Position numbers and translations under genes: made by a program
NCBI GenBank assembly: GCA_032622095.1
Contig: CP136061.1
Span: forward strand, 23,128,991 to 23,192,990
Length of the DNA stretch: 64,000 nt
From: Siphonodentalium dalli
Lineage: Eukaryota > Mollusca > Scaphopoda > Gadilida > Siphonodentaliidae
Reading direction: 5' to 3'
Shown: positions 1 to 64,000 of the stretch, in pieces
Numbering within the stretch: the first letter of the stretch is position 1
How the letters are laid out: each line of letters begins with the position of its first letter
Notes under the pieces: model-generated
Databases searched by the model: none
Told to the model about the DNA's origin: nothing
What the model saw: only the letters and a program-made list of their open reading frames with translations

Positions 1-62
1 GATTTATGGTTCTAACCCAGAGATTCATGAATACAACTCAGGGATTTATGACTTTTTCGAAG
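1..62 (+). repeat. Representative monomer (class a)
   Basis: First complete unit, close to the array consensus, with 22 G/C of 62. Class-defining positions are as follows. Bases 6-12 read ATGGTTC in a, f and g, GTGGCTC in b and c, ATGGCTT in h, and ATGGCTC in d, e and i. The text after CCCAGAGATTCATGA reads ATACAACTC in a, TTACAACTC in b, ATAGAACTC in g and ATACAACGC in c and d; f has CACGAATAG. Classes h, e and i carry CCCCGAG, CCCCGAG and CCCCAAG, followed by GACTACAAC. Class d' ends GACCTTTTCG or GACATTTTCG, and e ends TTTTTTGAAG. Class m is b/c-like at its left end but has ACTCAG and one T fewer (61 bp). Confidence 0.95.
1..62 (+). repeat. Three ~21-bp sub-repeats inside the monomer
   Basis: The monomer splits into thirds at 1-21, 22-42 and 43-62. 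They begin GATTTATGG, GATTCATGA and GATTTATGA. Thirds 1 and 2 also share the pattern YAACYCAG near their ends; third 3 is 20 bp and has diverged to a T-run followed by TTCGAAG. The likely origin is a ~21-bp element amplified to a trimer that then became the 62-bp unit. Independent support comes from the 83-bp monomer at 11,704-11,786, which has gained exactly 21 bp across the boundary of thirds 1 and 2. Confidence 0.8.
23..43. other. Dyad-symmetric core of the monomer
   Basis: Bases 23-32 are the perfect 10-bp palindrome ATTCATGAAT. It is flanked by CCCAGAG at 16-22 and CTCAGGG at 37-43, which would pair as an inverted repeat with one mismatch in seven. A second palindrome, TTCGAA, lies at 56-61. 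The 10-bp palindrome is intact in classes a, c, d, d', g and m. It is broken in b (ATTCATGATT), f (ATTCACGAAT), and h, i and e (ATTCATGACT). It therefore occurs in a fixed pattern along each module. Whether a protein reads it is unknown. Confidence 0.7.
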
Positions 63-681
63 GATTTGTGGCTCTAACCCAGAGATTCATGATTACAACT
101 CAGGGATTTATGACTTTTTCGAAGGATTTGTGGCTCTAACCCAGAGATTCATGAATACAACTCAGGGATTTATGACTTTTCGAAGGATTTATGGCTCAAA
201 CCTCGAGATTCATGAATACAACTCAGGGATTTATGACTTTTTCGAAGGATTTATGGTTCTAACCCAGAGATTCACGAATAGAACTCAGGGATTTATGACT
301 TTTTCGAAGGATTTATGGTTCTAACCTAGAGATTCATGAATAGAACTCAGGGATTTATGACTTTTTCGAAGGATTTATGGTTCTAACCCAGAGATTCATG
401 AATAGAACTCAGGGATTTATGACTTTTTCGAAGGATTTATGGCTTTAACCCCGAGATTCATGACTACAACTCAGGGATTTATGACTTTTTCGAAGGATTT
501 ATGGTTCTAACCCAGAAATTCATGAATACAACTCAGGGATTTATGACTTTTTCGAAGGATTTATGGTTCTAACCCAGAGATTCATGAATACAACTCAGGG
601 ATTTATGACTTTTTCGAAGGATTTGTGGCTCTAACCCAGAGATTCATGATTACAACTCAGGGATTTATGACTTTTTCGAAG

Positions 682-743
682 GATTTGTGGCTCTAACCCA
701 GAGATTCATGAATACAACTCAGGGATTTATGACTTTTTTGAAG
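682..743 (+). repeat. Chimeric m/e monomer
   Basis: The left part matches class m (GATTTGTGGCTC, ATTCATGAAT, ACAACTCAG) and the right end matches class e (TTTTTTGAAG). It sits where module type 1 would have m followed by e', and the module is one monomer shorter than usual. This reads as the junction of a misaligned exchange between m and the neighbouring e-type unit. Confidence 0.65.
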
Positions 744-1487
744 GATTTATGGTTCTAACCCAGAGATTCACGAATAGAACTCAGGGATTTATGACTTTTT
801 CGAAGGATTTATGGTTCTAACCCAGAGATTCATGAATAGAACTCAGGGATTTATGACTTTTTCGAAGGATTTATGGTTCTAACCCAGAGATTCATGAATA
901 GAACTCAGGGATTTATGACTTTTTCGAAGGATTTATGGCTTTAACCCCGAGATTCATGACTACAACTCAGGGATTTATGACTTTTTCGAAGGATTTATGG
1001 TTCTAACCCAGAGATTCATGAATACAACTCAGGGATTTATGACTTTTTCGAAGGATTTATGGTTCTAACCCAGAGATTCATGAATAGAACTCAGGGATTT
1101 ATGACTTTTTCGAAGGATTTATGGTTCTAACCCAGAGATTCATGAATAGAACTCAGGGATTTATGACTTTTTCGATTGATTTATGGTTCTAACCCAGAGA
1201 TTCATGAATACAACTCAGGGATTTATGACTTTTTCGATTGATTTATGGTTCTAACCCAGAGATTCATGAATACAACTCAGGGATTTATGACTTTTTCGAA
1301 GGATTTGTGGCTCTAACCCAGAGATTCATGATTACAACTCAGGGATTTATGACTTTTTCGAAGGATTTGTGACTCTAACCCAGAGATTCATGAATACAAC
1401 TCAGGGATTTATGACTTTTTCGAAGGATTTGTGGCTCTAACCCAGAGATTCATGATTACAACTCAGGGATTTATGACTTTTTCGAAG

Positions 1488-4958: not shown

Positions 4959-6135
4959 GATTTATGGTTCTAACCCAGAGATTCATGAATAGAACTCAGG
5001 GATTTATGACTTTTTCGAAGGATTTATGGTTCTAACCCAGAGATTCATGAATAGAACTCAGGGATTTATGACTTTTTCGAAGGATTTATGGCTTTAACCC
5101 CGAGATTCATGACTACAACTCAGGGATTTATGACTTTTTCGAAGGATTTATGGTTCTAACCCAGAAATTCATGAATACAACTCAGGGATTTATGACTTTT
5201 TCGAAGGATTTATGGTTCTAACCCAGAGATTCATGAATACAACTCAGGGATTTATGACTTTTTCGAAGGATTTGTGGCTCTAACCCAGAGATTCATGATT
5301 ACAACTCAGGGATTTATGACTTTTTCGAAGGATTTGTGGCTCTAACCCAGAGATTCATGAATACAACTCAGGGATTTATGACTTTTCGAAGGATTTATGG
5401 CTCAAACCTCGAGATTCATGAATACAACTCAGGGATTTATGACTTTTTCGAAGGATTTATGGTTCTAACCCAGAGATTCATGAATACAACTCAGGGATTT
5501 ATGACTTTTTCGAAGGATTTATGGTTCTAACCCAGAGATTCATGAATAGAACTCATGGATTTATGACTTTTTCGAAGGATTTATGGATTTAACCCCGAGA
5601 TTCATGACTACAACTCAGGGATTTATGACTTTTTCGAAGGATTTATGGTTCTAACCCAGAGATTCAAGAATACAACTCAGGGATTTATGACTTTTTCGAA
5701 GGATTTGTGGCTCTAACCCAGAGATTCATGATTACAACTCAGGGATTTATGACTTTTTCGAAGGATTTGTGGCTCTAACCCAGAGATTCATGAATACAAC
5801 GCAAGGATTTATGACCTTTTCGAAGGATTTATGGCTCTAACCCCAAGATTCATGACTACAACTCAGGGATTTATGACTTTTTCGAAGGATTTATGGTTCT
5901 AACCCAGAGATTCATGAATAGAACTCAGGGATTTATGACTTTTTCGAAGGATTTATGGTTCTAACCCAGAGATTCATGAATAGAACTCAGGGATTTATGA
6001 CTTTTTCGAAGGATTTATGGTTCTAACCCAGAGATTCATGAATAGAACTCAGGGATTTATGACTTTTTCGAAGGATTTATGGCTTTAACCCCGAGATTCA
6101 TGACTACAACTCAGGGATTTATGACTTTTTCGAAG

Positions 6136-6193
6136 GATTTATGGTTCTAACCCAGAGATTCAAGAATACAACTGATTTATGACTTTTTCGAAG
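6136..6193 (+). repeat. 58-bp monomer (4-bp deletion)
   Basis: A class-a monomer with ATTCAAGAAT that reads ACTGATTTATG where ACTCAGGGATTTATG is usual, so CAGG is lost. The same 58-bp unit recurs at 8,734-8,791, showing that the deletion preceded the 2,598-bp duplication. Confidence 0.88.
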
Positions 6194-7122
6194 GATTTAT
6201 GGTTCTAACCCAGAGATTCATGAATACAACTCAGGGATTTATGACTTTTTCGAAGGATTTGTGGCTCTAACCCAGAGATTCATGATTACAACTCAGGGAT
6301 TTATGACTTTTTCGAAGGATTTGTGGCTCTAACCCAGAGATTCATGAATACAACTCAGGGATTTATGACTTTTCGAAGGATTTATGGCTCAAACCTCGAG
6401 ATTCATGAATACAACTCAGGGATTTATGACTTTTTCGAAGGATTTATGGTTCTAACCCAGAGATTCACGAATAGAACTCAGGGATTTATGACTTTTTCGA
6501 AGGATTTATGGTTCTAACCCAGAGATTCATGAATAGAACTCAGGGATTTATGACTTTTTCGAAGGATTTATGGTTCTAACCCAGAGATTCATGAATAGAA
6601 CTCAGGGATTTATGACTTTTTCGAAGGATTTATGGCTTTAACCCCGAGATTCATGACTACAACTCAGGGATTTATGACTTTTTCGAAGGATTTATGGTTC
6701 TAACCCAGAGATTCATGAATACAACTCAGGGATTTATGACTTTTTCGAAGGATTTGTGGCTCTAACCCAGAGATTCATGAATACAACGCAGGGATTTATG
6801 ACTTTTTCGAAGGATTTATGGCTCTAACCCAGAGATTCATGAATACAACGCAAAGATTTATAACTTTTTCGAAGGATTTATGGCTCAAACCCCGAGATTC
6901 ATGACTACAACTCAGGGATTTATGACTTTTTTGAAGGATTTATGGTTCTAACCCAGAGATTCACGAATAGAACTCAGGGATTTATGACTTTTTCGAAGGA
7001 TTTATGGTTCTAACCCAGAGATTCATGAATAGAACTCAGGGATTTATGACTTTTTCGAAGGATTTATGGTTCTAACCCAGAGATTCATGAATAGAACTCA
7101 GGGATTTATGACTTTTTCGAAG

Positions 7123-7184
7123 GATTTATGGCTTTAACCCCGAGATTCATGAATAGAACTCAGGGATTTATGACTTTTTCGAAG
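7123..7184 (+). repeat. Chimeric h/g monomer
   Basis: Starts as class h (CTTTAACCCCGAG) but continues as class g (ATTCATGAATAGAACTC). The corresponding unit in the other block B copy, at 9,783, is an ordinary h. This suggests a short conversion tract or exchange after the duplication. Confidence 0.65.
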
Positions 7185-7556
7185 GATTTATGGTTCTAAC
7201 CCAGAGATTCATGAATACAACTCAGGGATTTATGACTTTTTCGATTGATTTATGGTTCTAACCCAGAGATTCATGAATACAACTCAGGGATTTATGACTT
7301 TTTCGAAGGATTTGTGGCTCTAACCCAGAGATTCATGATTACAACTCAGGGATTTATGACTTTTTCGAAGGATTTGTGACTCTAACCCAGAGATTCATGA
7401 ATACAACTCAGGGATTTATGACTTTTTCGAAGGATTTGTGGCTCTAACCCAGAGATTCATGATTACAACTCAGGGATTTATGACTTTTTCGAAGGATTTG
7501 TGGCTCTAACCCAGAGATTCATGAATACAACGCAGGGATTTATGACTTTTTCGAAG

Positions 7557-10216
7557 GATTTATGGTTCTAACCCAGAGATTCATGAATAGAACTCAGGGA
7601 TTTATGACTTTTTCGAAGGATTTATGGTTCTAACCCAGAGATTCATGAATAGAACTCAGGGATTTATGACTTTTTCGAAGGATTTATGGCTTTAACCCCG
7701 AGATTCATGACTACAACTCAGGGATTTATGACTTTTTCGAAGGATTTATGGTTCTAACCCAGAAATTCATGAATACAACTCAGGGATTTATGACTTTTTC
7801 GAAGGATTTATGGTTCTAACCCAGAGATTCATGAATACAACTCAGGGATTTATGACTTTTTCGAAGGATTTGTGGCTCTAACCCAGAGATTCATGATTAC
7901 AACTCAGGGATTTATGACTTTTTCGAAGGATTTGTGGCTCTAACCCAGAGATTCATGAATACAACTCAGGGATTTATGACTTTTCGAAGGATTTATGGCT
8001 CAAACCTCGAGATTCATGAATACAACTCAGGGATTTATGACTTTTTCGAAGGATTTATGGTTCTAACCCAGAGATTCATGAATACAACTCAGGGATTTAT
8101 GACTTTTTCGAAGGATTTATGGTTCTAACCCAGAGATTCATGAATAGAACTCATGGATTTATGACTTTTTCGAAGGATTTATGGCTTTAACCCCGAGATT
8201 CATGACTACAACTCAGGGATTTATGACTTTTTCGAAGGATTTATGGTTCTAACCCAGAGATTCAAGAATACAACTCAGGGATTTATGACTTTTTCGAAGG
8301 ATTTGTGGCTCTAACCCAGAGATTCATGATTACAACTCAGGGATTTATGACTTTTTCGAAGGATTTGTGGCTCTAACCCAGAGATTCATGAATACAACGC
8401 AAGGATTTATGACCTTTTCGAAGGATTTATGGCTCTAACCCCAAGATTCATGACTACAACTCAGGGATTTATGACTTTTTCGAAGGATTTATGGTTCTAA
8501 CCCAGAGATTCATGAATAGAACTCAGGGATTTATGACTTTTTCGAAGGATTTATGGTTCTAACCCAGAGATTCATGAATAGAACTCAGGGATTTATGACT
8601 TTTTCGAAGGATTTATGGTTCTAACCCAGAGATTCATGAATAGAACTCAGGGATTTATGACTTTTTCGAAGGATTTATGGCTTTAACCCCGAGATTCATG
8701 ACTACAACTCAGGGATTTATGACTTTTTCGAAGGATTTATGGTTCTAACCCAGAGATTCAAGAATACAACTGATTTATGACTTTTTCGAAGGATTTATGG
8801 TTCTAACCCAGAGATTCATGAATACAACTCAGGGATTTATGACTTTTTCGAAGGATTTGTGGCTCTAACCCAGAGATTCATGATTACAACTCAGGGATTT
8901 ATGACTTTTTCGAAGGATTTGTGGCTCTAACCCAGAGATTCATGAATACAACTCAGGGATTTATGACTTTTCGAAGGATTTATGGCTCAAACCTCGAGAT
9001 TCATGAATACAACTCAGGGATTTATGACTTTTTCGAAGGATTTATGGTTCTAACCCAGAGATTCACGAATAGAACTCAGGGATTTATGACTTTTTCGAAG
9101 GATTTATGGTTCTAACCCAGAGATTCATGAATAGAACTCAGGGATTTATGACTTTTTCGAAGGATTTATGGTTCTAACCCAGAGATTCATGAATAGAACT
9201 CAGGGATTTATGACTTTTTCGAAGGATTTATGGCTTTAACCCCGAGATTCATGACTACAACTCAGGGATTTATGACTTTTTCGAAGGATTTATGGTTCTA
9301 ACCCAGAGATTCATGAATACAACTCAGGGATTTATGACTTTTTCGAAGGATTTGTGGCTCTAACCCAGAGATTCATGAATACAACTCAGGGATTTATGAC
9401 TTTTTCGAAGGATTTGTGGCTCTAACCCAGAGATTCATGAATACAACGCAGGGATTTATGACTTTTTCGAAGGATTTATGGCTCTAACCCAGAGATTCAT
9501 GAATACAACGCAAGGATTTATAACTTTTTCGAAGGATTTATGGCTCAAACCCCGAGATTCATGACTACAACTCAGGGATTTATGACTTTTTTGAAGGATT
9601 TATGGTTCTAACCCAGAGATTCACGAATAGAACTCAGGGATTTATGACTTTTTCGAAGGATTTATGGTTCTAACCCAGAGATTCATGAATAGAACTCAGG
9701 GATTTATGACTTTTTCGAAGGATTTATGGTTCTAACCCAGAGATTCATGAATAGAACTCAGGGATTTATGACTTTTTCGAAGGATTTATGGCTTTAACCC
9801 CGAGATTCATGACTACAACTCAGGGATTTATGACTTTTTCGAAGGATTTATGGTTCTAACCCAGAGATTCATGAATACAACTCAGGGATTTATGACTTTT
9901 TCGATTGATTTATGGTTCTAACCCAGAGATTCATGAATACAACTCAGGGATTTATGACTTTTTCGAAGGATTTGTGGCTCTAACCCAGAGATTCATGATT
10001 ACAACTCAGGGATTTATGACTTTTTCGAAGGATTTGTGACTCTAACCCAGAGATTCATGAATACAACTCAGGGATTTATGACTTTTTCGAAGGATTTGTG
10101 GCTCTAACCCAGAGATTCATGATTACAACTCAGGGATTTATGACTTTTTCGAAGGATTTGTGGCTCTAACCCAGAGATTCATGAATACAACGCAGGGATT
10201 TATGACTTTTTCGAAG
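7557..10216 (+). repeat. Block B, copy 2 (2,660 bp)
   Basis: Second copy of 4,959-7,556, longer by exactly one monomer. The extra unit lies near 9,349-9,410 and reads GATTTGTGGCTC with ACAACTCAGG. Downstream of it, markers are offset by 2,660 instead of 2,598, for example TCGATTG at 7,241 and 9,901. Confidence 0.86.
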
Positions 10217-11703: not shown

Positions 11704-11786
11704 GATTTATGGCTTTAACCCCGAGATTCATGACTTTAACCCCGAGATTCATGACTACAACTCAGGGATTTATGACTTTTTCGAAG
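11704..11786 (+). repeat. 83-bp monomer with a 21-bp internal duplication
   Basis: Class-h monomer in which the segment from CTTTAACCCC to ATTCATGA is present twice, adding 21 bp. The duplicated piece spans the boundary of sub-repeats 1 and 2, so the event is a one-sub-repeat slip. The spacing of neighbouring 61-bp units confirms the gain: 11,395 to 13,461 is 33 x 62 + 20, i.e. +21 and -1. Confidence 0.9.
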
Positions 11787-14141: not shown

Positions 14142-15504
14142 GATTTGTGGCTCTAACCCAGAGATTCATGAATACAACGCAAGGATTTATGACCTTTTCG
14201 AAGGATTTATGGCTCTAACCCCAAGATTCATGACTACAACTCAGGGATTTATGACTTTTTCGAAGGATTTATGGTTCTAACCCAGAGATTCATGAATAGA
14301 ACTCAGGGATTTATGACTTTTTCGAAGGATTTATGGTTCTAACCCAGAGATTCATGAATAGAACTCAGGGATTTATGACTTTTTCGAAGGATTTATGGTT
14401 CTAACCCAGAGATTCATGAATAGAACTCAGGGATTTATGACTTTTTCGAAGGATTTATGGCTTTAACCCCGAGATTCATGACTACAACTCAGGGATTTAT
14501 GACTTTTTCGAAGGATTTATGGTTCTAACCCAGAGATTCAAGAATACAACTCAGGGATTTATGACTTTTTCGAAGGATTTATGGTTCTAACCCAGAGATT
14601 CATGAATACAACTCAGGGATTTATGACTTTTTCGAAGGATTTGTGGCTCTAACCCAGAGATTCATGATTACAACTCAGGGATTTATGACTTTTTCGAAGG
14701 ATTTGTGGCTCTAACCCAGAGATTCATGAATACAACTCAGGAATTTATGACTTTTCGAAGGATTTATGGCTCAAACCTCGAGATTCATGAATACAACTCA
14801 GGGATTTATGACTTTTTCGAAGGATTTATGGTTCTAACCCAGAGATTCACGAATAGAACTCAGGGATTTATGACTTTTTCGAAGGATTTATGGTTCTAAC
14901 CCAGAGATTCATGAATAGAACTCAGGGATTTATGACTTTTTCGAAGGATTTATGGTTCTAACCCAGAGATTCATGAATAGAACTCAGGGATTTATGACTT
15001 TTTCGAAGGATTTATGGCTTTAACCCCGAGATTCATGACTACAACTCAGGGATTTATGACTTTTTCGAAGGATTTATGGTTCTAACCCAGAGATTCATGA
15101 ATACAACTCAGGGATTTATGACTTTTTCGAAGGATTTGTGGCTCTAACCCAGAGATTCATTATTACAACTCAGGGATTTATGACTTTTTCGAAGGATTTG
15201 TGGCTCTAACCCAGAGATTCATGAATACAACGCAGGGATTTATGACTTTTTCGAAGGATTTGTGGCTCTAACCCAGAGATTCATGAATACAACGCAAGGA
15301 TTTATGACATTTTCGAAGGATTTATGGCTCTAACCCCGAGATTCATGACTACAACTCAGGGATTTATGACTTTTTCGAAGGATTTATGGTTCTAACGCAG
15401 AGATTCATGAATAGAACTCAGGGATTTATGACTTTTTCGAAGGATTTATGGTTCTAACCCAGAGATTAATGAATAGAACTCAGGGATTTATGACTTTTTC
15501 GAAG
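14142..15504 (+). repeat. Block C, copy 1 (offset 1,611 bp)
   Basis: Matches 15,753-17,115 with an offset of 26 x 62 - 1. Shared private variants are ATTCAAGAAT near 14,538, CAGGAATTTATG near 14,739, ATTCATTATT near 15,156, GACATTTTCG near 15,305, TCTAACGCAG at 15,391 and GATTAATGAA near 15,465. Confidence 0.85.
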
Positions 15505-15752
15505 GATTTATGGTTCTAACCCAGAGATTCATGAATAGAACTCAGGGATTTATGACTTTTTCGAAGGATTTATGGTTCTAACCCAGAGATTCATGAATAC
15601 AACTCAGGGATTTATGACTTTTTCGAAGGATTTGTGGCTCTAACCCAGAGATTCATTATTACAACTCAGGGATTTATGACTTTTTCGAAGGATTTGTGGC
15701 TCTAACCCAGAGATTCATGAATACAACGCAGGGATTTATGACTTTTTCGAAG
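15505..15752 (+). repeat. Four-monomer linker between block C copies
   Basis: Monomers g, a, b (with ATTCATTATT) and c. The a-b-c order resembles 15,071-15,256, so this short stretch probably is the remnant of a further copy. Nothing else is present. Confidence 0.65.
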
Positions 15753-17115
15753 GATTTGTGGCTCTAACCCAGAGATTCATGAATACAACGCAAGGATTTA
15801 TGACCTTTTCGAAGGATTTATGGCTCTAACCCCAAGATTCATGACTACAACTCAGGGATTTATGACTTTTTCGAAGGATTTATGGTTCTAACCCAGAGAT
15901 TCATGAATAGAACTCAGGGATTTATGACTTTTTCGAAGGATTTATGGTTCTAACCCAGAGATTCATGAATAGAACTCAGGGATTTATGACTTTTTCGAAG
16001 GATTTATGGTTCTAACCCAGAGATTCATGAATAGAACTCAGGGATTTATGACTTTTTCGAAGGATTTATGGCTTTAACCCCGAGATTCATGACTACAACT
16101 CAGGGATTTATGACTTTTTCGAAGGATTTATGGTTCTAACCCAGAGATTCAAGAATACAACTCAGGGATTTATGACTTTTTCGAAGGATTTATGGTTCTA
16201 ACCCAGAGATTCATGAATACAACTCAGGGATTTATGACTTTTTCGAAGGATTTGTGGCTCTAACCCAGAGATTCATGATTACAACTCAGGGATTTATGAC
16301 TTTTTCGAAGGATTTGTGGCTCTAACCCAGAGATTCATGAATACAACTCAGGAATTTATGACTTTTCGAAGGATTTATGGCTCAAACCTCGAGATTCATG
16401 AATACAACTCAGGGATTTATGACTTTTTCGAAGGATTTATGGTTCTAACCCAGAGATTCACGAATAGAACTCAGGGATTTATGACTTTTTCGAAGGATTT
16501 ATGGTTCTAACCCAGAGATTCATGAATAGAACTCAGGGATTTATGACTTTTTCGAAGGATTTATGGTTCTAACCCAGAGATTCATGAATAGAACTCAGGG
16601 ATTTATGACTTTTTCGAAGGATTTATGGCTTTAACCCCGAGATTCATGACTACAACTCAGGGATTTATGACTTTTTCGAAGGATTTATGGTTCTAACCCA
16701 GAGATTCATGAATACAACTCAGGGATTTATGACTTTTTCGAAGGATTTGTGGCTCTAACCCAGAGATTCATTATTACAACTCAGGGATTTATGACTTTTT
16801 CGAAGGATTTGTGGCTCTAACCCAGAGATTCATGAATACAACGCAGGGATTTATGACTTTTTCGAAGGATTTGTGGCTCTAACCCAGAGATTCATGAATA
16901 CAACGCAAGGATTTATGACATTTTCGAAGGATTTATGGCTCTAACCCCGAGATTCATGACTACAACTCAGGGATTTATGACTTTTTCGAAGGATTTATGG
17001 TTCTAACGCAGAGATTCATGAATAGAACTCAGGGATTTATGACTTTTTCGAAGGATTTATGGTTCTAACCCAGAGATTAATGAATAGAACTCAGGGATTT
17101 ATGACTTTTTCGAAG
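15753..17115 (+). repeat. Block C, copy 2
   Basis: Second copy of 14,142-15,504, with m at 16,311. Its last monomers (c, d' with GACATTTTCG, i', g with TCTAACGCAG, g with GATTAATG) are also the first monomers of the 3,222-bp cassette that follows, so the two repeat units overlap at 16,806-17,115. Confidence 0.83.
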
Positions 17116-47727: not shown

Positions 47728-48099
47728 GATTTGTGGCTCTAACCCAGAGATTCATGATTACAACTCAGGGATTTATGACTTTTTCGAAGGATTTGTGGCT
47801 CTAACCCAGAGATTCATGAATACAACGCAAGGATTTATGACCTTTTCGAAGGATTTATGGCTCTAACCCCAAGATTCATGACTACAACTCAGGGATTTAT
47901 GACTTTTTCGAAGGATTTATGGTTCTAACCCAGAGATTCATGAATAGAACTCAGGGATTTATGACTTTTTCGAAGGATTTATGGTTCTAACCCAGAGATT
48001 CATGAATAGAACTCAGGGATTTATGACTTTTTCGAAGGATTTATGGTTCTAACCCAGAGATTCATGAATAGAACTCAGGGATTTATGACTTTTTCGAAG
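47604..48099 (+). repeat. Octamer tandem duplication, unit 2
   Basis: Second 496-bp unit, starting with the same CTTTAACTCCGAG variant. The h unit that follows at 48,100 has the normal CTTTAACCCC, giving the direction of the duplication. Confidence 0.87.
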
Positions 48100-49896: not shown

Positions 49897-52800
49897 GATT
49901 TATGGCTCTAACCCCGAGATTCATGACTACAACTCAGGGATTTATGACTTTTTCGAAGGATTTATGGTTCTAACCCAGAGATTCATGAATAGAACTCAGG
50001 GATTTATGACTTTTTCGAAGGATTTATGGTTCTAACCCAGAGATTAATGAATAGAACTCAGGGATTTTTGACTTTTTCGAAGGATTTATGGTTCTAACCC
50101 AGAGATTCATGAATACAACGCAGGGATTTATGACTTTTTCGAAGGATTTGTGGCTCTAACCCAGAGATTCGTGAATACAACGCAAGGATTTATGACCTTT
50201 TCGAAGGATTTATGGCTCTAACCCCGAGATTCATGACTACAACTCAGGGATTTATGACTTTTTCGAAGGATTTATGGTTCTAACCCAGAGATTCATGAAT
50301 AGAACTCAGGGATTTATGACTTTTTCGAAGGATTTATGGTTCTAACCCAGAGATTCATGAATAGAACTCAGGGATTTATGACTTTTTCGAAGGATTTATG
50401 GCTTTAACCCCGAGATTCATGACTACAACTCAGGGATTTATGACTTTTTCGAAGGATTTATGGTTCTAACCCAGAGATTCATGAATACAACTCAGGGATT
50501 TATGACTTTTTCGAAGGATTTGTGGCTCTAACCCAGAGATTCATGAATACAACGCAGGGATTTATGACTTTTTCGAAGGATTTATGGCTCTAACCCAGAG
50601 ATTCATGAATACAACGCAAGGATTTATGACTTTTTCGAAGGATTTATGGCTCAAACCCCGAGATTCATGACTACAACTCAGGGATTTATGACTTTTTTGA
50701 AGGATTTATGGTTCTAACCCAGAGATTCACGAATAGAACTCAGGGATTTATGACTTTTTCGAAGGATTTATGGTTCTAACCCAGAGATTCATGAATAGAA
50801 CTCAGGGATTTATGACTTTTTCGAAGGATTTATGGTTCTAACCCAGAGATTCATGAATAGAACTCAGGGATTTATGACTTTTTCGAAGGATTTATGGCTT
50901 TAACTCCGAGATTCATGACTACAACTCAGGGATTTATGACTTTTTCGAAGGATTTATGGTTCTAACCCAGAGATTCATGAATACAACTCAGGGATTTATG
51001 ACTTTTTCGAAGGATTTGTGGCTCTAACCCAGAGATTCATGATTACAACTCAGGGATTTATGACTTTTTCGAAGGATTTGTGGCTCTAACCCAGAGATTC
51101 ATGAATACAACGCAAGGATTTATGACCTTTTCGAAGGATTTATGGCTCTAACCCCAAGATTCATGACTACAACTCAGGTATTTATGACTTTTTCGAAGGA
51201 TTTATGGTTCTAACCCAGAGATTCATGAATAGAACTCAGGGATTTATGACTTTTTCGAAGGATTTATGGTTCTAACCCAGAGATTCATGAATAGAACTCA
51301 GGGATTTATGACTTTTTCGAAGGATTTATGGTTCTAACCCAGAGATTCATGAATAGAACTCAGGGATTTATGACTTTTTCGAAGGATTTATGGCTTTAAC
51401 CCCGAGATTCATGACTACAACTCAGGGATTTATGACTTTTTCGAAGGATTTATGGTTCTAACCCAGAGATTCATGAATACAACTTAGGGATTTATGACTT
51501 TTTCGAAGGATTTATGGTTCTAACCCAGAGATTCATGAATACAACTCAGGGATTTATGACTTTTTCGAAGGATTTATGGCTCAAACCCCGAGATTCATGA
51601 CTACAACTCAGGGATTTATGACTTTTTTGAAGGATTTATGGTTCTAACCCAGAGATTCACGAATAGAACTCAGGGATTTATGACTTTTTCGAAGGATTTA
51701 TGGTTCTAACCCAGAGATTCATGAATAGAACTCAGGGATTTATGACTTTTTCGAAGGATTTATGGTTCTAACCCAGAGATTCATGAATAGAACTCAGGGA
51801 TTTATGACTTTTTCGAAGGATTTATTGCTTTAACCCCGAGATTCATGACTACAACTCAGGGATTTATGACTTTTTCGAAGGATTTATGGTTCTAACCCAG
51901 AGATTCATGAATACAACTCAGGGATTTATGACTTTTTCGAAGGATTTATGGTTCTAACCCAGAGATTCATGAATAGAACTCAGGGATTTATGACTTTTTC
52001 GAAGGATTTATGGTTCTAACCCAGAGATTCATGAATAGAACTCAGGGATTTATGACTTTTTCGAAGGATTTATGGTTCTAACCCTGAGATTCATGAATAG
52101 AACTCAGGGATTTATGAATTTTTCGAAGGATTTATGGTTCTAACCCAGAGATTCATGAATAGAACTCAGGGATTTATGACTTTTTCGAAGGATTTATGGC
52201 TTTAACCCCGAGATTCATGATTACAACTCAGGGATTTATGACTTTTTCTAAGGATTTATGGTTCTAACCCAGAGATTCATGAATACAACTCAGGGATTTA
52301 TGACTTTTTCGAAGGATTTATGGTTCTAACCCAGAGATTCATGAATACAACTCAGGGATTTATGACTTTTTCGAAGGATTTGTGGCTCTAACCCAGAGAT
52401 TCATGATTACAACTCAGGGATTTATGACTTTTTCGAAGGATTTGGGGCTCTAACCCAGAGATTCATGAATACAACTCAGGGATTTATGACTTTTCGAAGG
52501 ATTTATGGCTCAAACGTCGAGATTCATGAATACAACTCAGGGATTTATGACTTTTTCGAAGGATTTATGGTTCTAACCCAGAGATTCACGAATAGAACTC
52601 AGGGATTTATGACTTTTTCGAAGGATTTATGGTTCTAACCCAGAGATTCATGAATAGAACTCAGGGATTTATGACTTTTTCGAAGGATTTATGGTTCTAA
52701 CCCAGAGATTCATGAATAGAACTCAGGGATTTATGACTTTTTCGAAGGATTTATGGCTTTAACCCCGAGATTCATGACTACAACTCAGGGATTTATGACT

Positions 52801-55800
52801 TTTTCGAAGGATTTATGGTTCTAACCCAGAGATTCATGAATACAACTCAGGGATTTATGACTTTTTCGAAGGATTTGTGGCTCTAACCCAGAGATTCATT
52901 ATTACAACTCAGGGATTTATGACTTTTTCGAAGGATTTGTGGCTCTAACCCAGAGATTCATGAATACAACGCAGGGATTTATGACTTTTTCGAAGGATTT
53001 GTGGCTCTAACCCAGAGATTCATGAATACAACGCAAGGATTTATGACATTTTCGAAGGATTTATGGCTCTAACCCCGAGATTCATGACTACAACTCAGGG
53101 ATTTATGACTTTTTCGAAGGATTTATGGTTCTAACCCAGAGATTCATGAATAGAACTCAGGGATTTATGACTTTTTTGAAGGATTTATGGTTCTAACCCA
53201 GAGATTAATGAATAGAACTCAGGGATTTATGACTTTTTCGAAGGATTTATGGTTCTAACCCAGAGATTCATGAATACAACGCAGGGATTTATGACTTTTT
53301 CGAAGGATTTGTGGCTCTAACCCAGAGATTCGTGAATACAACGCAAGGATTTATGACCTTTTCGAAGGATTTATGGCTCTAACCCCGAGATTCATGACTA
53401 CAACTCAGGGATTTATGACTTTTTCGAAGGATTTATGGTTCTAACCCAGAGATTCATGAATAGAACTCAGGGATTTATGACTTTTTCGAAGGATTTATGG
53501 TTCTAACCCAGAGATTCATGAATAGAACTCAGGGATTTATGACTTTTTCGAAGGATTTATGGCTTTAACCCCGAGATTCATGACTACAACTCAGGGATTT
53601 ATGACTTTTTCGAAGGATTTATGGCTCTAACCCAGAGATTCATGAATACAACGCAAGGATTTATGACTTTTTCGAAGGATTTATGGCTCAAACCCCGAGA
53701 TTCATGACTACAACTCAGGGATTTATGACTTTTTTGAAGGATTTATGGTTCTAACCCAGAGATTCACGAATAGAACTCAGGGATTTATGACTTTTTCGAA
53801 GGATTTATGGTTCTAACCCAGAGATTCATGAATAGAACTCAGGGATTTATGACTTTTTCGAAGGATTTATGGTTCTAATCCAGAGATTCATTAATAGAAC
53901 TCAGGGATTTATGACTTTTTCGAAGGATTTATGGCTTTTACCCCGAGATTCATGACTACAACTCAGGGATTTATGACTTTTTCGAAGGATTTATGGTTCT
54001 AACCCAGAGATTCATTAATACAACTCAGGGATTTATGACTTTTTCGAAGGATTTGTGGCTCTAACCCAGAGATTCATGAATACAACGCAAGGATTTTTGA
54101 CCTTTTCGAAGGATTTATGGCTCTAACCCCAAGATTCATGACTACAACTCAGGGATTTATGACTTTTTCGAAGGATTTATGGTTCTAACCCAGAGATTCA
54201 TGAATAGAACTCAGGGATTTATGACTTTTTCGAAGGATTTATGGTTCTAACCCAGAGATTCATGAATAGAACTCAGGGATTTATGACTTTTTCGAAGGAT
54301 TTATGGTTCTAACCCAGAGATTCATGAATAGAACTCAGGGATTTATGACTTTTTCGAAGGATTTATGGCTTTAACCCCGAGATTCATGACTACAACTCAG
54401 GGATTTATGACTTTTTCGAAGGATTTATGGTTCTAACCCAGAGATTCATGAATACAACTCAGGGATTTATGACTTTTTCGAAGGATTTATGGTTCTAACC
54501 CAGAGATTCATGAATACAACTCAGGGATTTATGACTTTTTCGAAGGATTTGTGGCTCTAACCCAGAGATTCATGATTACAACTCAGGGATTTATGACTTT
54601 TTCGAAGGATTTGTTGCTCTAACACAGAGATTCATGAATACAACGCAATGAATTATGACCTTTTCGAAGGATTTATGGCTCTAACCCCAAGATTCATGAC
54701 TACAACTCAGGGATTTATGACTTTTTCGAAGGATTTATGGTTCTAACCCAGAGATTCATGAATAGAACTCAGGGATTTATGACTTTTTCGAAGGATTTAT
54801 GGTTTTAACCCAGAGATTCATGAATAGAACTCAGGGATTTATGACTTTTTCGAAGGATTTATGGTTCTAACCCAGAGATTCATGAATAGAACTCAGGGAT
54901 TTATGACTTTTTCGAAGGATTTATGGCTTTAACCCCGAGATTCATGACCACAACTCAGGGATTTATGACTTTTTCGAAGGATTTATGGTTCTAACCCAGA
55001 GATTCATGAATACAACTCAGGGATTTATGACTTTTTCGAAGGATTTATGGTTCTAACCCAGAGATTCATGAATACAACTCAGGGATTTATAACTTTTTCG
55101 AAGGATTTGTGGCTCTAACCCAGAGATTCATGATTACAACTCAGGGATTTATGACTTTTTCGAAGGATTTGTGGCTCTAACCCAGAGATTCATGAATACA
55201 ACTCAGGGATTTATGACTTTTCGAAGGATTTATGGCTCAAACCCAGAGATTCATGACTACAACTCAGGGATTTATGACTTTTTCGAAGGATTTAAGGTTC
55301 TAACCCAGAGATTCACGAATAGAACTCAGGGATTTATGACTTTTTTGAAGGATTTATGGTTCTAACCCAGAGATTCATGAATAGAACTCAGGGATTTATG
55401 ACTTTTTCGAAGGATTTATGGTTCTAACCCAGAGATTCATGAATAGAACTTAGGGATTTATGACTTTTTCGAAGGATTTATGGCTTTAACCCCGAGATTC
55501 ATGACTACAACTCAGGGATTTATGACTTTTTCGAAGGATTTATGGTTCTAACCCAGAGATTCATGAATACAACTCAGGGATTTATGACTTTTTCGATTGA
55601 TTTATGGTTCTAACCCAGAGATTCATGAATACAACTCAGGGATTTATGACTTTTTCGAAGGATTTGTGGCTCTAACCCAGAGATTCATGATTACAACTCA
55701 GGGATTTATGACTTTTTCGAAGGATTTGTGACTCTAACCCAGAGATTCATGAATACAACTCAGGGATTTATGACTTTTTCGAAGGATTTGTGGCTCTAAC

Positions 55801-57396
55801 CCAGAGATTCATGATTACAACTCAGGGATTTATGACTTTTTCGAAGGATTTGTGGCTCTAACCCAGAGATTCATGAATACAACGCAGGGATTTATGACTT
55901 TTTCGAAGGATTTGTGGCTCTAACCCAGAGATTCGTGAATACAACGCAAGGATTTATGACCTTTTCGAAGGATTTATGGCTCTAACCCCGAGATTCATGA
56001 CTACAACTCAGGGATTTATGACTTTTTCGAAGGATTTATGGTTCTAACCCAGAGATTCATGAATAGAACTCAGGGATTTATGACTTTTTCGAAGGATTTA
56101 TGGTTCTAACCCAGAGATTCATGAATAGAACTCAGGGATTTATGACTTTTTCGAAGGATTTATGGTTCTAACCCAGAGATTCATGAATAGAACTCAGGGA
56201 TTTATGACTTTTTCGAAGGATTTATGGCTTTAACCCCGAGATTCTTGACTACAACTCAGGGATTTATGACTTTTTCGAAGGATTTATGGTTCTAACCCAG
56301 AGATTCATGAATACAACTCAGGGATTTATGACTTTTTCGAAGGATTTGTGGCTCTAACCCAGAGATTCATGAATACAACGCAGGGATTTATGACTTTTTC
56401 GAAGGATTCATGGCTCTAACCCAGAGATTCATGAATACAACGCAAGGATTTATGACTTTTTCGAAGGATTTATGGCTCAAACCCCGAGATTCATGACTAC
56501 AACTCAGGGATTTATGACTTTTTTGAAGGATAAATGGTTCTAACCCAGAGATTCACGAATAGAACTCAGGGATTTATGACTTTTTCGAAGGATTTATGGT
56601 TCTAACCCAGAGATTCATGAATAGAACTCAGGGATTTATGACTTTTTCGAAGGATTTATGGTTCTAACCCAGAGATTCATGAATAGAACTCAGGGATTTA
56701 TGACTTTTTCGAAGGATTTATGGCTTTAACTCCGAGATTCATGACTACAACTCAGGGATTTATGACTTTTTCGAAGGATTTATGGTTCTAACCCAGAGAT
56801 TCATGAATACAACTCAGGGATTTATGACTTTTTCGAAGGATTTGTGGCTCTAACCCAGAGATTCATGATTACAACTCAGGGATTTATGACTTTTTCGAAG
56901 GATTTGTGGCTCTAACCCAGAGATTCATGAATACAACGCAAGGATTTATGACCTTTTCGAAGGATTTATGGCTCTAACCCCAAGATTCATGACTACAACT
57001 CAGGGATTTATGACTTTTTCGAAGGATTTATGGTTCTAACCCAGAGATTCATGAATAGAACTCAGGGATTTATGACTTTTTCGAAGGATTTATGGTTCTA
57101 ACCCAGAGATTCATGAATAGAACTCAGGGATTTATGACTTTTTCGAAGGATTTATGGTTCTAACCCAGAGATTCATGAATAGAACTCAGGGATTTATGAC
57201 TTTTTCGAAGGATTTATGGCTTTAACCCCGAGATTCATGACTACAACTCAGGGATTTATGACTTTTTCGAAGGATTTATGGTTCTAACCCAGAGATTCAT
57301 GACTACAACTCAGGGATTTATGACTTTTTCGAAGGATTTATGGTTCTAACCCAGAGATTCATGAATACAACTCAGGGATTTATGACTTTTTCGAAG
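49835..57396 (+). repeat. Block F, copy 2 (7,562 bp)
   Basis: Second copy of 32,789-40,475, shorter by 125 bp, which equals two monomers plus the one-base A insertion of the other copy. The two-monomer gap is at 53,616, where h passes to d without a and c. It overlaps E-block copies 4 and 5 and block G copy 2, so the same DNA belongs to several nested duplications. GGATTTTTGAC near 50,064 is private. Confidence 0.86.
50269..53491 (+). repeat. 3.22-kb unit, copy 3 of 3, containing E-block copy 5
   Basis: E-block copy 5 is at 51,571-53,057, with GATTTGGGG in m (52,439), GTCGAG (52,516) and TTTCTAAGG near 52,246. Other shared markers are CTTTAACTCC (50,896), CAGGTATTT (51,177) and AACTTAGGG (51,481). 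Confidence 0.85.
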
Positions 57397-59318
57397 GATT
57401 TGTTGCTCTAACCCAGAGATTCATGATTACAACTCAGGGATTTATTACTTTTTTGAAGGATTTGTGGCTCTAACCCAGAGATTCATGAATACAACGCAAG
57501 GATTTATGACCTTTTCGAAGGATTTATGGCTCTAACCCCAAGATTCATGACTACAACTCAGGGATTTATGACTTTTTCGATTGATTTATGGTTCTAACCC
57601 AGAGATTCATGAATAGAACTCAGGGATTTATGACTTTTTCGAAGGATTTGTGGCTCTAACCCAGAGATTCATTATTACAACTCAGGGATTTATGACTTTT
57701 TCGAAGGATTTGTGACTCTAACCCAGAGATTCATGAATACAACTCAGGGATTTATGACTTTTTCGAAGGATTTGTGGCTCTAACCCAGAGATTCATGATT
57801 ACAACTCAGGGATTTATGACTTTTTCGAAGGATTTGTGGCTCTAACCCAGAGATTCATGAATACAACGCAGGGATTTATGACTTTTTCGAAGGATTTGTG
57901 GCTCTAACCCAGAGATTCGTGAATACAACGCAAGGATTTATGACCTTTTCGAAGGATTTATGGCTCTAACCCCGAGATTCATGACTACAACTCAGGGATT
58001 TATGACTTTTTCGAAGGATTTATGGTTCTAACCCAGAGATTCATGAATAGAACTCAGGGATTTATGACTTTTTCGAAGGATTTATGGTTCTAACCCAGAG
58101 ATTCATGAATAGAACTCAGGGATTTATGACTTTTTCGAAGGATTTATGGTTCTAACCCAGAGATTCATGAATAGAACTCAGGGATTTATGACTTTTTCGA
58201 AGGATTTATGGCTTTAATCCCGAGATTCATGACTACAACTCAGGGATTTATGACTTTTTCGAAGGATTTATGGTTCTAACCCAGAGATTCATGAATACAA
58301 CTCAGGGATTTATGACTTTTTCGAAGGATTTGTGGCTCTAACCCAGAGATTCATGAATACAACGCAGGGATTTATGACTTTTTCGAAGGATTTATGGCTC
58401 TAACCCAGAGATTCATGAATACAACGCAAGGATTTATGACTTTTTCGAAGGATTTATGGCTCAAACCCCGAGATTCATGACTACAACTCAGGGATTTATG
58501 ACTTTTTTGAAGGATTTATGGTTCTAACCCAGAGATTCACGAATAGAACTCAGGGATTTATGACTTTTTCGAAGGATTTATGGTTCTAACCCAGAGATTC
58601 ATGAATAGAACTCAGGGATTTATGACTTTTTCGAAGGATTTATGGTTCTAACCCAGAGATTCATGAATAGAACTCAGGGATTTATGACTTTTTCGAAGGA
58701 TTTATGGCTTTAACTCCGAGATTCATGACTACAACTCAGGGATTTATGACTTTTTCGAAGGATTTATGGTTCTAACCCAGAGATTCATGAATACAACTCA
58801 GGGATTTATGACTTTTTCGAAGGATTTGTGGCTCTAACCCAGAGATTCATGATTACAACTCAGGGATTTATGACTTTTTCGAAGGATTTGTGGCTCTAAC
58901 CCAGAGATTCATGAATACAACGCAAGGATTTATGACCTTTTCGAAGGATTTATGGCTCTAACCCCAAGATTCATGACTACAACTCAGGGATTTATGACTT
59001 TTTCGAAGGATTTATGGTTCTAACCCAGAGATTCATGAATAGAACTCAGGGATTTATGACTTTTTCGAAGGATTTATGGTTCTAACCCAGAGATTCATGA
59101 ATAGAACTCAGGGATTTATGACTTTTTCGAAGGATTTATGGTTCTAACCCAGAGATTCATGAATAGAACTCAGGGATTTATGACTTTTTCGAAGGATTTA
59201 TGGCTTTAACCCCGAGATTCATGACTACAACTCAGGGATTTATGACTTTTTCGAAGGATTTATGGTTCTAACCCAGAGATTCATGAATACAACTCAGGGA
59301 TTTATGACTTTTTCGAAG
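54980..59318 (+). repeat. Block G, copy 2 (offset 11,591 bp)
   Basis: Second copy of 43,389-47,727. It lacks the doubled octamer found at 47,108-48,099. Private changes are GAACTTAGGG near 55,446, GGATTCATGG near 56,406, an a monomer with GACTACAAC near 57,301, and CTTTAATCCCGAG near 58,213. Confidence 0.85.
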
Positions 59319-62300
59319 GATTTATGGTTCTAACCCAGAGATTCATGAATACAACTCAGGGATTTATGACTTTTTCGAAGGATTTGTTGCTCTAACCCAG
59401 AGATTCATGATTACAACTCAGGGATTTATGACTTTTTTGAAGGATTTGTGGCTCTAACCCAGAGATTCATGAATACAACGCAAGGATTTATGACCTTTTC
59501 GAAGGATTTATGGCTCTAACCCCAAGATTCATGACTACAACTCAGGGATTTATGACTTTTTCGAAGGATTTATGGTTCTAACCCAGAGATTCATGAATAG
59601 AACTCAGGGATTTATGACTTTTTCGAAGGATTTATGGTTCTAACCCAGAGATTCATGAATAGAACTCAGGGATTTATGACTTTTTCGAAGGATTTATGGC
59701 TTTAACCCCGAGATTCATGACTACAACTCAGGGATTTATGACTTTTTCGAAGGATTTATGGTTCTAACCCAGAGATTCATGAATACAACTCAGGGATTTA
59801 TGACTTTTTGGAAGGATTTATGGTTCTAACCCAGAAATTCATGAATACAACTCAGGGATTTATGACTTTTTCGAAGGATTTGTGGCTCTAACCCAGAGAT
59901 TCATGATTACAACTCAGGGATTTATGACTTTTTCGAAGGATTTGTGGCTCTAACCCAGAGATTCATGAATACAACTCAGGGATTTATGACTTTTCGAAGG
60001 ATTTATGGCTCAAACCCCGAGATTCATGACTACAACTCAGGGATTTATGACTTTTTTGAAGGATTTATGGTTCTAACCCAGAGATTCACGAATAGAACTC
60101 AGGGATTTATGACTTTTTCGAAGGATTTATGGTTCTAACCCAGAGATTCATGAATAGAACTCAGGGATTTATGACTTTTTCGAAGGATTTATGGTTCTAA
60201 CCCAGAGATTCATGAATAGAACTCAGGGATTTATGACTTTTCTAAGGATTTATGGCTTTAACCCCGAGATTCATGACTACAACTCAGGGATTTATGACTT
60301 TTTCGAAGGATTTATGGTTCTAACCCAGAGATTCATGAATACAACTCAGGGATTTATGACTTTTTCGAAGGATTTATGGTTCTAACCCAGAGATTCATGA
60401 ATAGAACTCATGGATTTATGACTTTTTCGAAGGATTTATGGCTTTAACCCCGAGATTCATGTCTACAACTCAGGGATTTATGACTTTTTCGAAGGATTTA
60501 TGGTTCTAACCCAGAGATTCATGAATACAACTCAGGGATTTATGACTTTTTCGAAGGATTTGTGGCTCTAACCCAGAGATTCATGATTACAACTCAGGGA
60601 TTTATGACTTTTTCGAAGGATTTGTGGCTCTAACCCAGAGATTCATGAATACAACGCAAGGATTTATGACCTTTTCGAAGGATTTATGGCTCTAACCCCA
60701 AGATTCATGACTACAACTCAGGGATTTATGACTTTTTCGAAGGATTTATGGTTCTAACCCAGAGATTCATGAATAGAACTCAGGGATTTATGACTTTTTC
60801 GAAGGATTTATGGTTCTAACCCAGAGATTCATGAATAGAACTCAGGGATTTATGACTTTTTCGAAGGATTTATGGTTCTAACCCAGAGATTCATGAATAG
60901 AACTCAGGGATTTATGACTTTTTCGAAGGATTTATGGCTTTAACCCCGAGATTCATGACTACAACTCAGGGATTTATGACTTTTTCGAAGGATTTATGGT
61001 TCTAACCCAGAGATTCATGAATACAACTCAGGGATTTATGACTTTTTCGAAGGATTTATGGTTCTAACCCAGAGATTCATGAATACAACTCAGGGATTTA
61101 TGACTTTTTCGAAGGATTTGTGGCTCTAACCCAGAGATTCATGATTACAACTCAGGGATTTATGACTTTTTCGAAGGATTTGTTGCTCTAACCCAGAGAT
61201 TCATGAATACAACTCAGGGATTTATGACTTTTCGAAGGATTTATGGCTCAAACCTCGAGATTCATGACTACAACTCAGGGATTTATGACTTTTTCGAAGG
61301 ATTTATGGTTCTAACCCAGAGATTCACGAATAGAACTCAGGGATTTATGACTTTTTCGAAGGATTTATGGTTCTAACCCAGAGATTCATGAATAGAACTC
61401 AGGGATTTATGACTTTTTCGAAGGATTTATGGTTCTAACCCAGAGATTCATGAATAGAACTCAGGGACTTATGACTTTTTCGAAGGATTTATGGCTTTAA
61501 CCACGAGATTCATGACTACAACTCAGGGATTTATGACTTTTTCGAAGGATTTATGGTTCTAACCCAGAGATTCATGAATACAACTCAGGGATTTATGACT
61601 TTTTCGAAGGATTTGTGGCTCTAACCCAGAGATTCATTATTACAACTCAGGGATTTATGACTTTTTAGAAGGATTTGTGGGTCTAACCCCGAGATTCATG
61701 AATACAACGCAGGGATTTATGACTTTTTCGAAGGATTTGTGGCTCTAACCCAGAGATTCATGAATACAACGCAAGGATTTATGACATTTTCGAAGGATTT
61801 ATGGCTCTAACCCCGAGATTCATGACTACAACTCAGGGATTTATGACTTTTTCGAAGGATTTATCGTTCTAACCCAGAGATTCATGAATAGAACTCAGGG
61901 ATTTATGACTTTTTCGAAGGATTTATGGTTCTAACCCAGAGATTAATGAATAGAACTCAGGGATTTATGACTTTTTCGAAGGATTTATGGTTCTAATCCA
62001 GAGATTCATGAATACAACGCAGGGATTTATGACTTTTTCGAAGGATTTGTGGCTCTAACCCAGAGATTCGTGAATACAACGCAAGGATTTATGACCTTTT
62101 CGAAGGATTTATGGCTCTAACTCCGAGATTCATGACTACAACTCAGGGATTTATGACTTTTTCGAAGGATTTATGGTTCTAACCCAGAGATTCATGAATA
62201 GAACTCAGGGATTTATGACTTTTTCGAAGGATTTATGGTTCTAACCCAGAGATTCATGAATAGAACTCAGGGATTTATGACTTTTTCGAAGGATTTATGG

Positions 62301-63469
62301 TTCTAACCCAGAGATTCATGAATAGAACTCAGGGATTTATGACTTTTTTGAAGGATTTATGGCTTTAACCCCGAGATTCATGACTACAACTCAGGGATTT
62401 ATGACTTTTTCGAAGGATTTATGGTTCTAACCCAGAGATTCATGAATACAACTCAGGGATTTTTGACTTTTTCGAAGGATTTGTGGCTCTAACCCAGAGA
62501 TTCATGAATACAACGCAGGGATTTATGACTTTTTCGAAGGATTTATGGCTCTATCCCAGAGATTCATGAATACAACGCAAGGATTTATGACTTTTTCGAA
62601 GGATTTATGGCTCAAACCCCGAGATTCAAGACTACAACTCAGGGATTTATGACTTTTTTGAAGGATTTATGGTTCTAACCCAGAGATTCACGAATAGAAC
62701 TCAGGGATTTATGACTTTTTCGAAGGATTTATGGTTCTAACCCAGAGATTCATGAATAGAACTCAGGGATTTATGACTTTTTCGAAGGATTTATGGTTCT
62801 AACCCAGAGATTCATGAATAGAACTCAGGGATTTATGACTTTTTCGAAGGATTTATGGCTTTAACCCCGAGATTCATGACTACAACTCAGGGATTTATGA
62901 CTTTTTCGAAGGATTTATGGTTCTAACCCAGAGATTCATTAATACAACTCAGGGATTTATGACTTTTTCGAAGGATTTGTGGCTCTAACCCAGTGATTCA
63001 TGATTACAACTCAGGGATTTATGACTTTTTCGAAGGATTTGTGGCTCTAACCCAGAGATTCATGAATACAACGCAAGGATTTATGACCTTTTCGAAGGAT
63101 TTAAGGTTCTAACCCCAAGATTCATGACTACAACTCAGGGATTTATGACTTTTTCGAAGGATTTATGGTTCTAACCCAGAGATTCATGAATAGAACTCAG
63201 GGATTTATGACTTTTTCGAAGGATTTATGATTCTAACCCAGAGATTCATGAATAGAACTCAGGGATTTATGACTTTTTCGAAGGATTTATGGTTCTAACC
63301 CAGAGATTCATGAATAGAACTCAGGGATTTATGACTTTTTCGAAGGATTTATGGTTCTAACCCAGAGATTCATGAATAGAACTCAGGGATTTATGACTTT
63401 TTCGAAGGATTTATGGTTCTAACCCAGAGATTCATGAATAGAACTCAGGGATTTATGACTTTTTTGAAG
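59319..63469 (+). repeat. Right-hand mixed modules
   Basis: Standard modules with many private point changes: TTTTTGGAAGG near 59,806, CTCATGG at 60,409, ATTCATGTCTAC near 60,457, CAGGGACTTATG near 61,463, CTTTAACCACGAG near 61,495, TTTTTAGAAGG near 61,665, TGGGTCTAAC near 61,678, TTATCGTTC at 61,861, GGATTTTTGAC near 62,460, CTATCCC near 62,552, CCCAGTGATTC near 62,991 and a six-g run near 63,160-63,470. More singletons appear here than in the middle of the window, suggesting less recent homogenisation. No gene is present. Confidence 0.72.
60186..60246 (+). repeat. Independent 61-bp monomer
   Basis: A class-g unit with one T lost and TTTTCTAAGG instead of TTTTTCGAAGG. It differs in class and sequence from the m family, so it is a separate T-run slip. 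It opens a second 64-codon frame (60,191-60,385) beside the one at 59,944-60,138, showing that such frames follow from any 61-bp unit. Confidence 0.85.
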
Positions 63470-63966
63470 GATTTATGGCTTTAAACCCCGAGATTCATGA
63501 CTACAACTCAGGGATTTATGACTTTTTCGAAGGATTTATGGTTCTAACCCAGAGATTCATGAATACAACTCAGGGATTTATGACTTTTTCGAAGGATTTG
63601 TGGCTCTAACCCAGAGATTCATGAATACAACGCAGGGATTTATGACTTTTTCGAAGGATTTATGGCTCTAACCCAGAGATTCATGAATACAACGCAAGGA
63701 TTTATGACTTTTTCGAAGGATTTATGGCTCAAACCCCGAGATTCAAGACTACAACTCAGGGATTTATGACTTTTTTGAAGGATTTATGGTTCTAACCCAG
63801 AGATTCACGAATAGAACTCAGGGATTTATGACTTTTTCGAAGGATTTATGGTTCTAACCCAGAGATTCATGAATAGAACTCAGGGATTTATGACTTTTTC
63901 GAAGGATTTATGGTTCTAACCCAGAGATTCATGAATAGAACTCAGGGATTTATGACTTTTTCGAAG
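63470..63966 (+). repeat. Octamer with +1 A, repeated into the window end
   Basis: Module h-a-c-d-e-f-g-g of 497 bp. The h unit reads CTTTAAACCCC with one extra A, and the next h at 63,967 carries the same insertion, so the octamer was duplicated after the insertion. The e unit has ATTCAAGACTAC, shared with the e near 62,625. The last 34 bases of the window start the next unit. Confidence 0.83.
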
Positions 63967-64000
63967 GATTTATGGCTTTAAACCCCGAGATTCATGACTA

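Follow-up and report, generated by a model that had tools for sequence, protein, structure and literature searches.

A 64-kb satellite array with irregular higher-order repeats nested at several scales above a 62-bp unit

Introduction

Higher-order organization, in which variants of a short tandem repeat recur in a fixed order as longer units, is known from many satellite DNAs; excerpts of a broad survey by Melters et al. describe such structure as clear in 76 of the 171 species that had Sanger data, plants and animals alike (PMC4053949). The locus studied here raises the question of how many such levels a short unit can carry, whether each level has a fixed period, and what kind of process could have produced them. 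A preliminary description of the window, by which we mean the whole analysed stretch of 64,000 nucleotides, had proposed a satellite nested at five levels, namely 21 bp, 62 bp, modules of 8, 9 or 12 monomers, cassettes of 1.5–3.2 kb and a block of 7.6 kb. In what follows, the levels are taken from the smallest to the largest, after which the probable origin of the array, the alternative readings and its relation to known satellites are considered.

The array, its monomer and its subunits

One uninterrupted array fills the window and extends past both of its ends, with all monomers head-to-tail and in a single orientation.

1..64000, plus strand: array of 1033 monomers of 62 bp, from TRF, wrap-around alignment and strand-specific probe words
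1..62, plus strand: first monomer, matching the consensus, with subunits at 1–21, 22–42 and 43–62

TRF reports a period of 62 across 1–11733 and 11737–63997 (94% matches) and a period of 21 across 1–63981 (59% matches), and plus-strand counts of three probe words are 942, 858 and 618, with none on the minus strand. Monomers were called by wrap-around alignment to the 62-bp consensus, which gave 1033 monomers in 130 distinct forms, differing from one another by about 6% (100 minus the 94% TRF matches). GC content stays between 0.366 and 0.375 over 32 windows of 2 kb, and positions 1–64000 contain no ORF of at least 150 aa, no tRNA and no Rfam match at gathering score. The window thus holds what satellite DNA is defined by, a long, gene-free, head-to-tail array of one unit.

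The monomer in turn divides into three subunits that resemble one another, of 21, 21 and 20 bp, which start with GATTTATG, GATTCATG and GATTTATG, respectively. Their pairwise scores are 14, 12 and 11, where shuffles average about 7, and were reached in 1, 14 and 9 of 2000 shuffles. Both of the lowest proposed levels, 21 and 62 bp, are borne out. The same applies to the proposed indels of 1, 4 and 21 bp. Among 1032 measured monomers, 997 have 62 bp, 29 have 61, three have 58, two have 63 and one has 83, so that a length departure by a whole subunit is seen in just one of them.

Ordered monomer classes and modules

Sixteen common haplotypes, each present in at least 10 copies, comprise 790 of the 1033 monomers. 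For counts of order and modules, each of the remaining 243 took the class closest to it, which lay at distance 1 for 183, at distance 2 for 48 and further away for 12, one of these at distance 31. The order of the classes is strict, as had been proposed, with a conditional entropy of 1.16 bits, where the lowest value among 200 shuffles was 3.09. Class C is followed by B in 113 of 114 cases, F by A in 52 of 52, G by A in 33 of 33 and L by J in 17 of 17.

This order gives rise to a level of several monomers. The spacing from one class-C monomer to the next (n = 114) is 8 in 42 cases, 9 in 27 and 12 in 9, which together make up 78, while the other 36 spacings range from 3 to 17. Exact identity of monomer type has short-range peaks at lag 8 (0.175) and lag 9 (0.176), above the highest value of 0.144 found in 200 shuffles over lags 1–399; a 62-bp period with no excess at eight monomers, the outcome that the preliminary description had named as fatal to nesting, is not what the array displays. 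Cutting after each C-B yields 115 modules, the most frequent of which are EKHFAACB (18 copies), DIGAAACB (17) and BDMPFAACB (12).

Two features that characterize higher-order repeats are present, a fixed order of types and multimers more alike than neighbouring monomers, adjacent monomers being 0.941 identical and long copies 99.48–100%. The array is not a classical regular one with a single dominant n-mer, because module lengths run from 3 to 17 monomers and local copies lie at seven offsets of 1.6–3.2 kb.

When monomers are grouped by diagnostic sites into four superclasses, a common order emerges across modules, g-a-a-a-g-a-(d/e)-(d/e). A scaffold motif of 8–10 monomers, consisting of gaaag, one or two a and two or three d/e, is present in 64 copies that take in 554 of the 1033 monomers, whereas none of 200 order-2 Markov runs held more than 18. 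At lag 8, superclass identity reaches 0.49, above the order-2 Markov maximum of 0.398. Since more than half of the monomers fall into copies of this motif, many modules resemble derivatives of a single ancestral 8-mer, a descent suggested by their common order. The interchangeable module types of the preliminary description are therefore real as modules, but many of them look like variants of one scaffold and not like independent types. The signs of a distinct level of 4 monomers (248 bp) are suggestive: g-class monomers are spaced by 4 in 129 of 225 cases, and there are 85 occurrences of gaaag where order-2 Markov runs gave at most 35; superclass identity at lag 4 (0.42) falls within the order-2 range (maximum 0.426).

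Cassettes of 1.6–3.2 kb

Local copies are found at seven offsets, 1611, 1984, 2416, 2478, 2598, 3161 and 3222 bp. Some of them adjoin or overlap; those at 2598 and 3161 have other monomers between them.

4959..9348, plus strand: local cassette pair at an offset of 42 monomers (2598 bp), 4959–6750 and 7557–9348, with 1 mismatch and intervening monomers
14142..17115, plus strand: local cassette pair at an offset of 26 monomers (1611 bp), 14142–15504 and 15753–17115, with 0 mismatches over 1363 bp
16930..23311, plus strand: tandem cassettes at an offset of 52 monomers (3222 bp), 16930–20089 and 20152–23311, with 0 mismatches over 3160 bp
22446..27711, plus strand: tandem cassettes at an offset of 39 monomers (2416 bp), with 4 mismatches over 46 monomers

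Copying on the scale of the proposed 1.5–3.2 kb cassettes is thus real (1611–3222 bp), and it comes in several sizes, not one. One pair also carries an indel in common, as two of the three shortest monomers are identical and mark the two copies at offset 2598.

6136..6193, plus strand: 58-bp monomer with a 4-bp deletion, identical to 8734–8791
8734..8791, plus strand: second copy of this 58-bp monomer, identical to 6136–6193
31120..31177, plus strand: 58-bp monomer with another 4-bp deletion, differing from that of 6136 and 8734

Larger blocks and null models

Taken together, the 26 ungapped segments listed reach up to 4.2 kb with identities of 99.48–100%, and 24 of them carry at least one substitution. 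Examples at longer range are 43389–47603 with 54980–59194 (5 mismatches), 36695–40351 with 53616–57272 (3 mismatches) and 32851–36446 with 49897–53491 (4 mismatches). Gapped alignment by monomer type merges such segments into larger blocks.

32169..39669, plus strand: 7.5-kb block, a gapped copy of 38430–44999, with 96 identical monomers, 10 differing and 15 present in 32169–39669 alone
38988..48037, plus strand: block of about 9 kb, a gapped copy of 50145–59690, with 130 identical and 14 differing monomers
50145..59690, plus strand: second copy of the block of about 9 kb, in gapped alignment with 38988–48037

In the latter pair, 2 monomers are unique to 38988–48037 and 10 to 50145–59690. Large copies of about the proposed 7.6 kb do exist (7.5 kb and about 9 kb), as several overlapping copies instead of a fixed unit of that length.

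Nine diagonals have a segment score of at least 30; no more than 1 did so in any of 200 module-order shuffles, and no more than 8 (mean 0.51) in any of 100 order-3 Markov runs. The best segment score is 60, against 40 and 45 under the same two models, and the longest exact run spans 51 monomers, where 60 order-3 Markov runs gave none longer than 37. Two further statistics stay below the order-3 null: the best lag overall, 187 monomers (0.178), is under the maximum of 0.198 in 60 runs, and exact runs of at least 12 monomers number 23, under a mean of 38.5. There is therefore no array-wide block period. The block level is carried by long near-identical segments beyond the null models, and the lag spectrum by itself fails to reveal it; the upper levels are irregular, and neither cassettes nor blocks follow one period. 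From subunit to block, the proposal of a multi-level nested satellite with modules arranged in kilobase cassettes is upheld by TRF, alignment, lags, modules and copies taken together.

Ungapped segments with a score of at least 18 include 708 of the 1033 monomers. None of them starts before 4959 or ends past 59256, the part from 32.9 to 59.3 kb is largely covered, and one gapped block extends beyond them to 59690. The bare ends (1–4958 and 59257–64000) may reflect uneven recent copying or partners that lie beyond the window.

Out-of-register copying as the probable origin

The array is very probably a nuclear eukaryotic satellite with irregular nested higher-order repeats that grew by repeated, homology-dependent, out-of-register copying. 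Judged by the kind of sequence it is, it would belong to a eukaryotic nuclear genome, and its likely location would be centromeric, pericentromeric or subtelomeric heterochromatin. Directly observed are in-register copies, near identity over long segments and one exact out-of-register product, the only monomer with four subunits.

11704..11786, plus strand: sole 83-bp monomer, with four subunits, corresponding to a class-C monomer self-recombined 21 bp out of register

This monomer exactly matches the class-C product of such an event, with the crossover at monomer position 30, 31 or 32, and an event of this kind could have built the 62-bp unit. In the scheme we favour, an ancestral unit of about 21 bp would have been triplicated to 62 bp, as the similarity of the subunits suggests; 62-bp variants would then have become fixed in an 8-monomer scaffold, to which the common module order points; and variants of this scaffold would have been copied repeatedly by homology-dependent out-of-register events into modules, copies of 1.6–3.2 kb and blocks of 7–9 kb. 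Unequal sister exchange, gene conversion and break-induced replication are the candidate pathways, any of which may have acted.

The copies stay in the 62-bp register, show near identity over long distances, overlap and nest in one another, and in one pair have a 4-bp deletion in common, all of which is expected from out-of-register exchange or break-induced replication. According to excerpts of PMC8122249, out-of-register homologous exchange and break-induced replication may both contribute, and the copies in the window are compatible with either. Exchange inside monomers was also considered on the basis of chimeric haplotypes and is not supported: among the 25 rare haplotypes at distance 2, perfect two-class chimeras number 3, which is no excess over the null (37 of 229), and at distance 1 their raw count is 13 of 81.

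Alternative readings

A different account of the strict order would be selection on a centromere sequence, in which a protein of the kinetochore or of heterochromatin would recognize certain monomer classes and thereby keep the modules in order. CENP-B boxes in alpha satellite provide a parallel for such protein binding. Apart from the order itself, this account can draw on columns 43–52 and 54–57, in each of which at least 1020 of the 1033 monomers agree on the base, on the consensus palindromes ATTCATGAAT and TTCGAA, whose centres lie 31 bp (half a monomer) apart, and on the extra power of A/T dinucleotides at 10.33 bp, a level that 24 of 2000 dinucleotide shuffles attained for WW and 69 of 2000 for AA/TT. 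The order is, however, explicable by copying alone, and palindromes of at least 10 bp also appear in 478 of 5000 shuffles, for which reason they were rejected as a functional site. Distinct rare changes, counted in 106 rare haplotypes no more than two changes from a common haplotype, number 33, 21 and 20 in the three subunits, just mildly uneven by eye. Hairpins were rejected as well, since folding is not clearly beyond that of shuffles for either DNA (z of 0.19 for one monomer and −1.85 for two) or RNA (−1.63 and −1.30). The tests for a sequence-specific role, including a weak helical phasing of A/T dinucleotides, gave weak or negative outcomes, and we consider selection of this kind unlikely. 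Under the copying account, a sequence-specific function is unneeded, and any role would be one of bulk, such as heterochromatin formation or a centromere substrate.

Slightly less probable still is that the block structure is in part an artefact of assembly, through false duplication or collapse of a repeat that reads could not resolve. Perfect copies such as the 3160 bp at offset 3222 would fit this explanation, but an artefact would have to affect the 708 monomers placed in ungapped segments, nearly all of those segments differ by substitutions, the larger blocks differ by whole monomers, and nesting is also present at scales far under read length.

Least credible is a flatworm mitochondrial array, as in the non-coding region of Schistosoma mansoni, for which excerpts of PMC3254664 give repeats of 62 bp and 558 bp (9 × 62): lag 9 (558 bp) is indeed a peak here, but the likeness is one of lengths, the array is 64 kb or longer as compared with a 9-kb non-coding part of an organelle genome, and lag 8 (496 bp), equally strong here, is absent from the excerpted account. 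The match in length is kept as a lead. Pena et al. 1995 is reportedly the source paper for the Schistosoma mansoni repeat.

Comparison with known satellites

Nested organization on a short unit had been called less familiar in the preliminary description, a judgement that needs qualifying, as two mouse satellites described in excerpts of PMC3218096 are of the same style. The first, the major satellite MaSat, has subunits of 28 and 30 bp, units of 58–60 bp, a four-unit repeat of 234 bp, higher-order units of about 2.15 kb that vary between arrays, and a GC content of at most 37%. It resembles the array in its multi-level nesting on a short unit and its low GC; it differs, in a comparison of architecture, in having two subunits per unit where the array has three and modules of mostly 8, 9 or 12 units. 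Variability between 58-bp units of MaSat is about 30% as against about 6% for the 62-bp units, the two values having been measured differently. Identity with MaSat was rejected on unit and subunit length (58–60 bp and 28+30, against 62 bp and 21+21+20).

The second, TRPC-21A-MM, is a pericentromeric satellite with a basic unit of 21 bp, minimal units of 21, 42 or 63 bp depending on the array, higher-order units of about 2 kb, a GC content of 48.2–50.1% and a variability of 27–31% (PMC3218096, excerpts). The likeness lies in the 21-bp basic unit and the multi-level nesting, and its variability is not like for like with the 59% (21 bp) and 94% (62 bp) matches of the array. Identity was rejected on GC, which is 36.6–37.5% in the array.

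Human alpha satellite, as excerpted from PMC11050224, is built of 171-bp monomers with 20–40% divergence between types and includes "cascading" higher-order repeats. It has in common with the array a fixed order of types, the recurrence of a type within a unit, sub-fragments of several monomers and adjacent variant units, whereas the 62-bp types of the array differ at few sites.

Searches for the family itself gave no match within their scope. Exact patterns of 34 and 25 bases had 0 matches in the viral contigs, and patterns of 27 and 25 bases 0 matches in the genome contigs, of a non-eukaryotic collection, and blastn with 4000 of the 64,000 bases found none among plasmids or phages in non-eukaryotic collections; because these collections are non-eukaryotic, the absence of matches says little. 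Sequence strings had no match in full-text literature, in which satellites are seldom printed as unbroken text and whose scope mostly leaves out subscription papers. A literature search on 62-bp satellites led, by length, to a cattle intron repeat unit and the Schistosoma mitochondrion, and "62 bp" in excerpts of the nematode satellite literature denotes a fragment common to satellites. It is conceivable, although we regard it as doubtful, that the array represents a so far undescribed family with a modular grammar of variable head and constant A-A-C-B tail, in which the common tail would guide module exchange, so that the steps of copying, from 21 bp up to about 9 kb, could be placed in order within 64 kb from common substitutions and indels.

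As a kind of DNA, the array is unsurprising: it shows an ordinary type of non-coding repeat in striking form, with clear, irregular higher-order repeats that a short unit makes up at several scales, and nested higher-order repeats are already known outside primates. Its ordered substitutions and its indels of 1, 4 and 21 bp serve as markers from which the order of duplications might be reconstructable, and arrays of this sort can be of use in testing whether unequal exchange or break-induced replication drives the growth of satellites.

Composition and minor observations

Three monomers span 186 bp and one monomer about six helical turns of 10.33 bp. The nucleosome repeat length is near 186 bp. 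Transitions are few among the rare changes, with 30 of 72 distinct substitutions. The CpG at monomer position 58 is retained in 984 of 1033 monomers, several class-diagnostic changes add CpGs (positions 19, 37 and 28), and the observed/expected ratio of CpG is 0.64, a pattern that hints at weak CpG decay or fast turnover.
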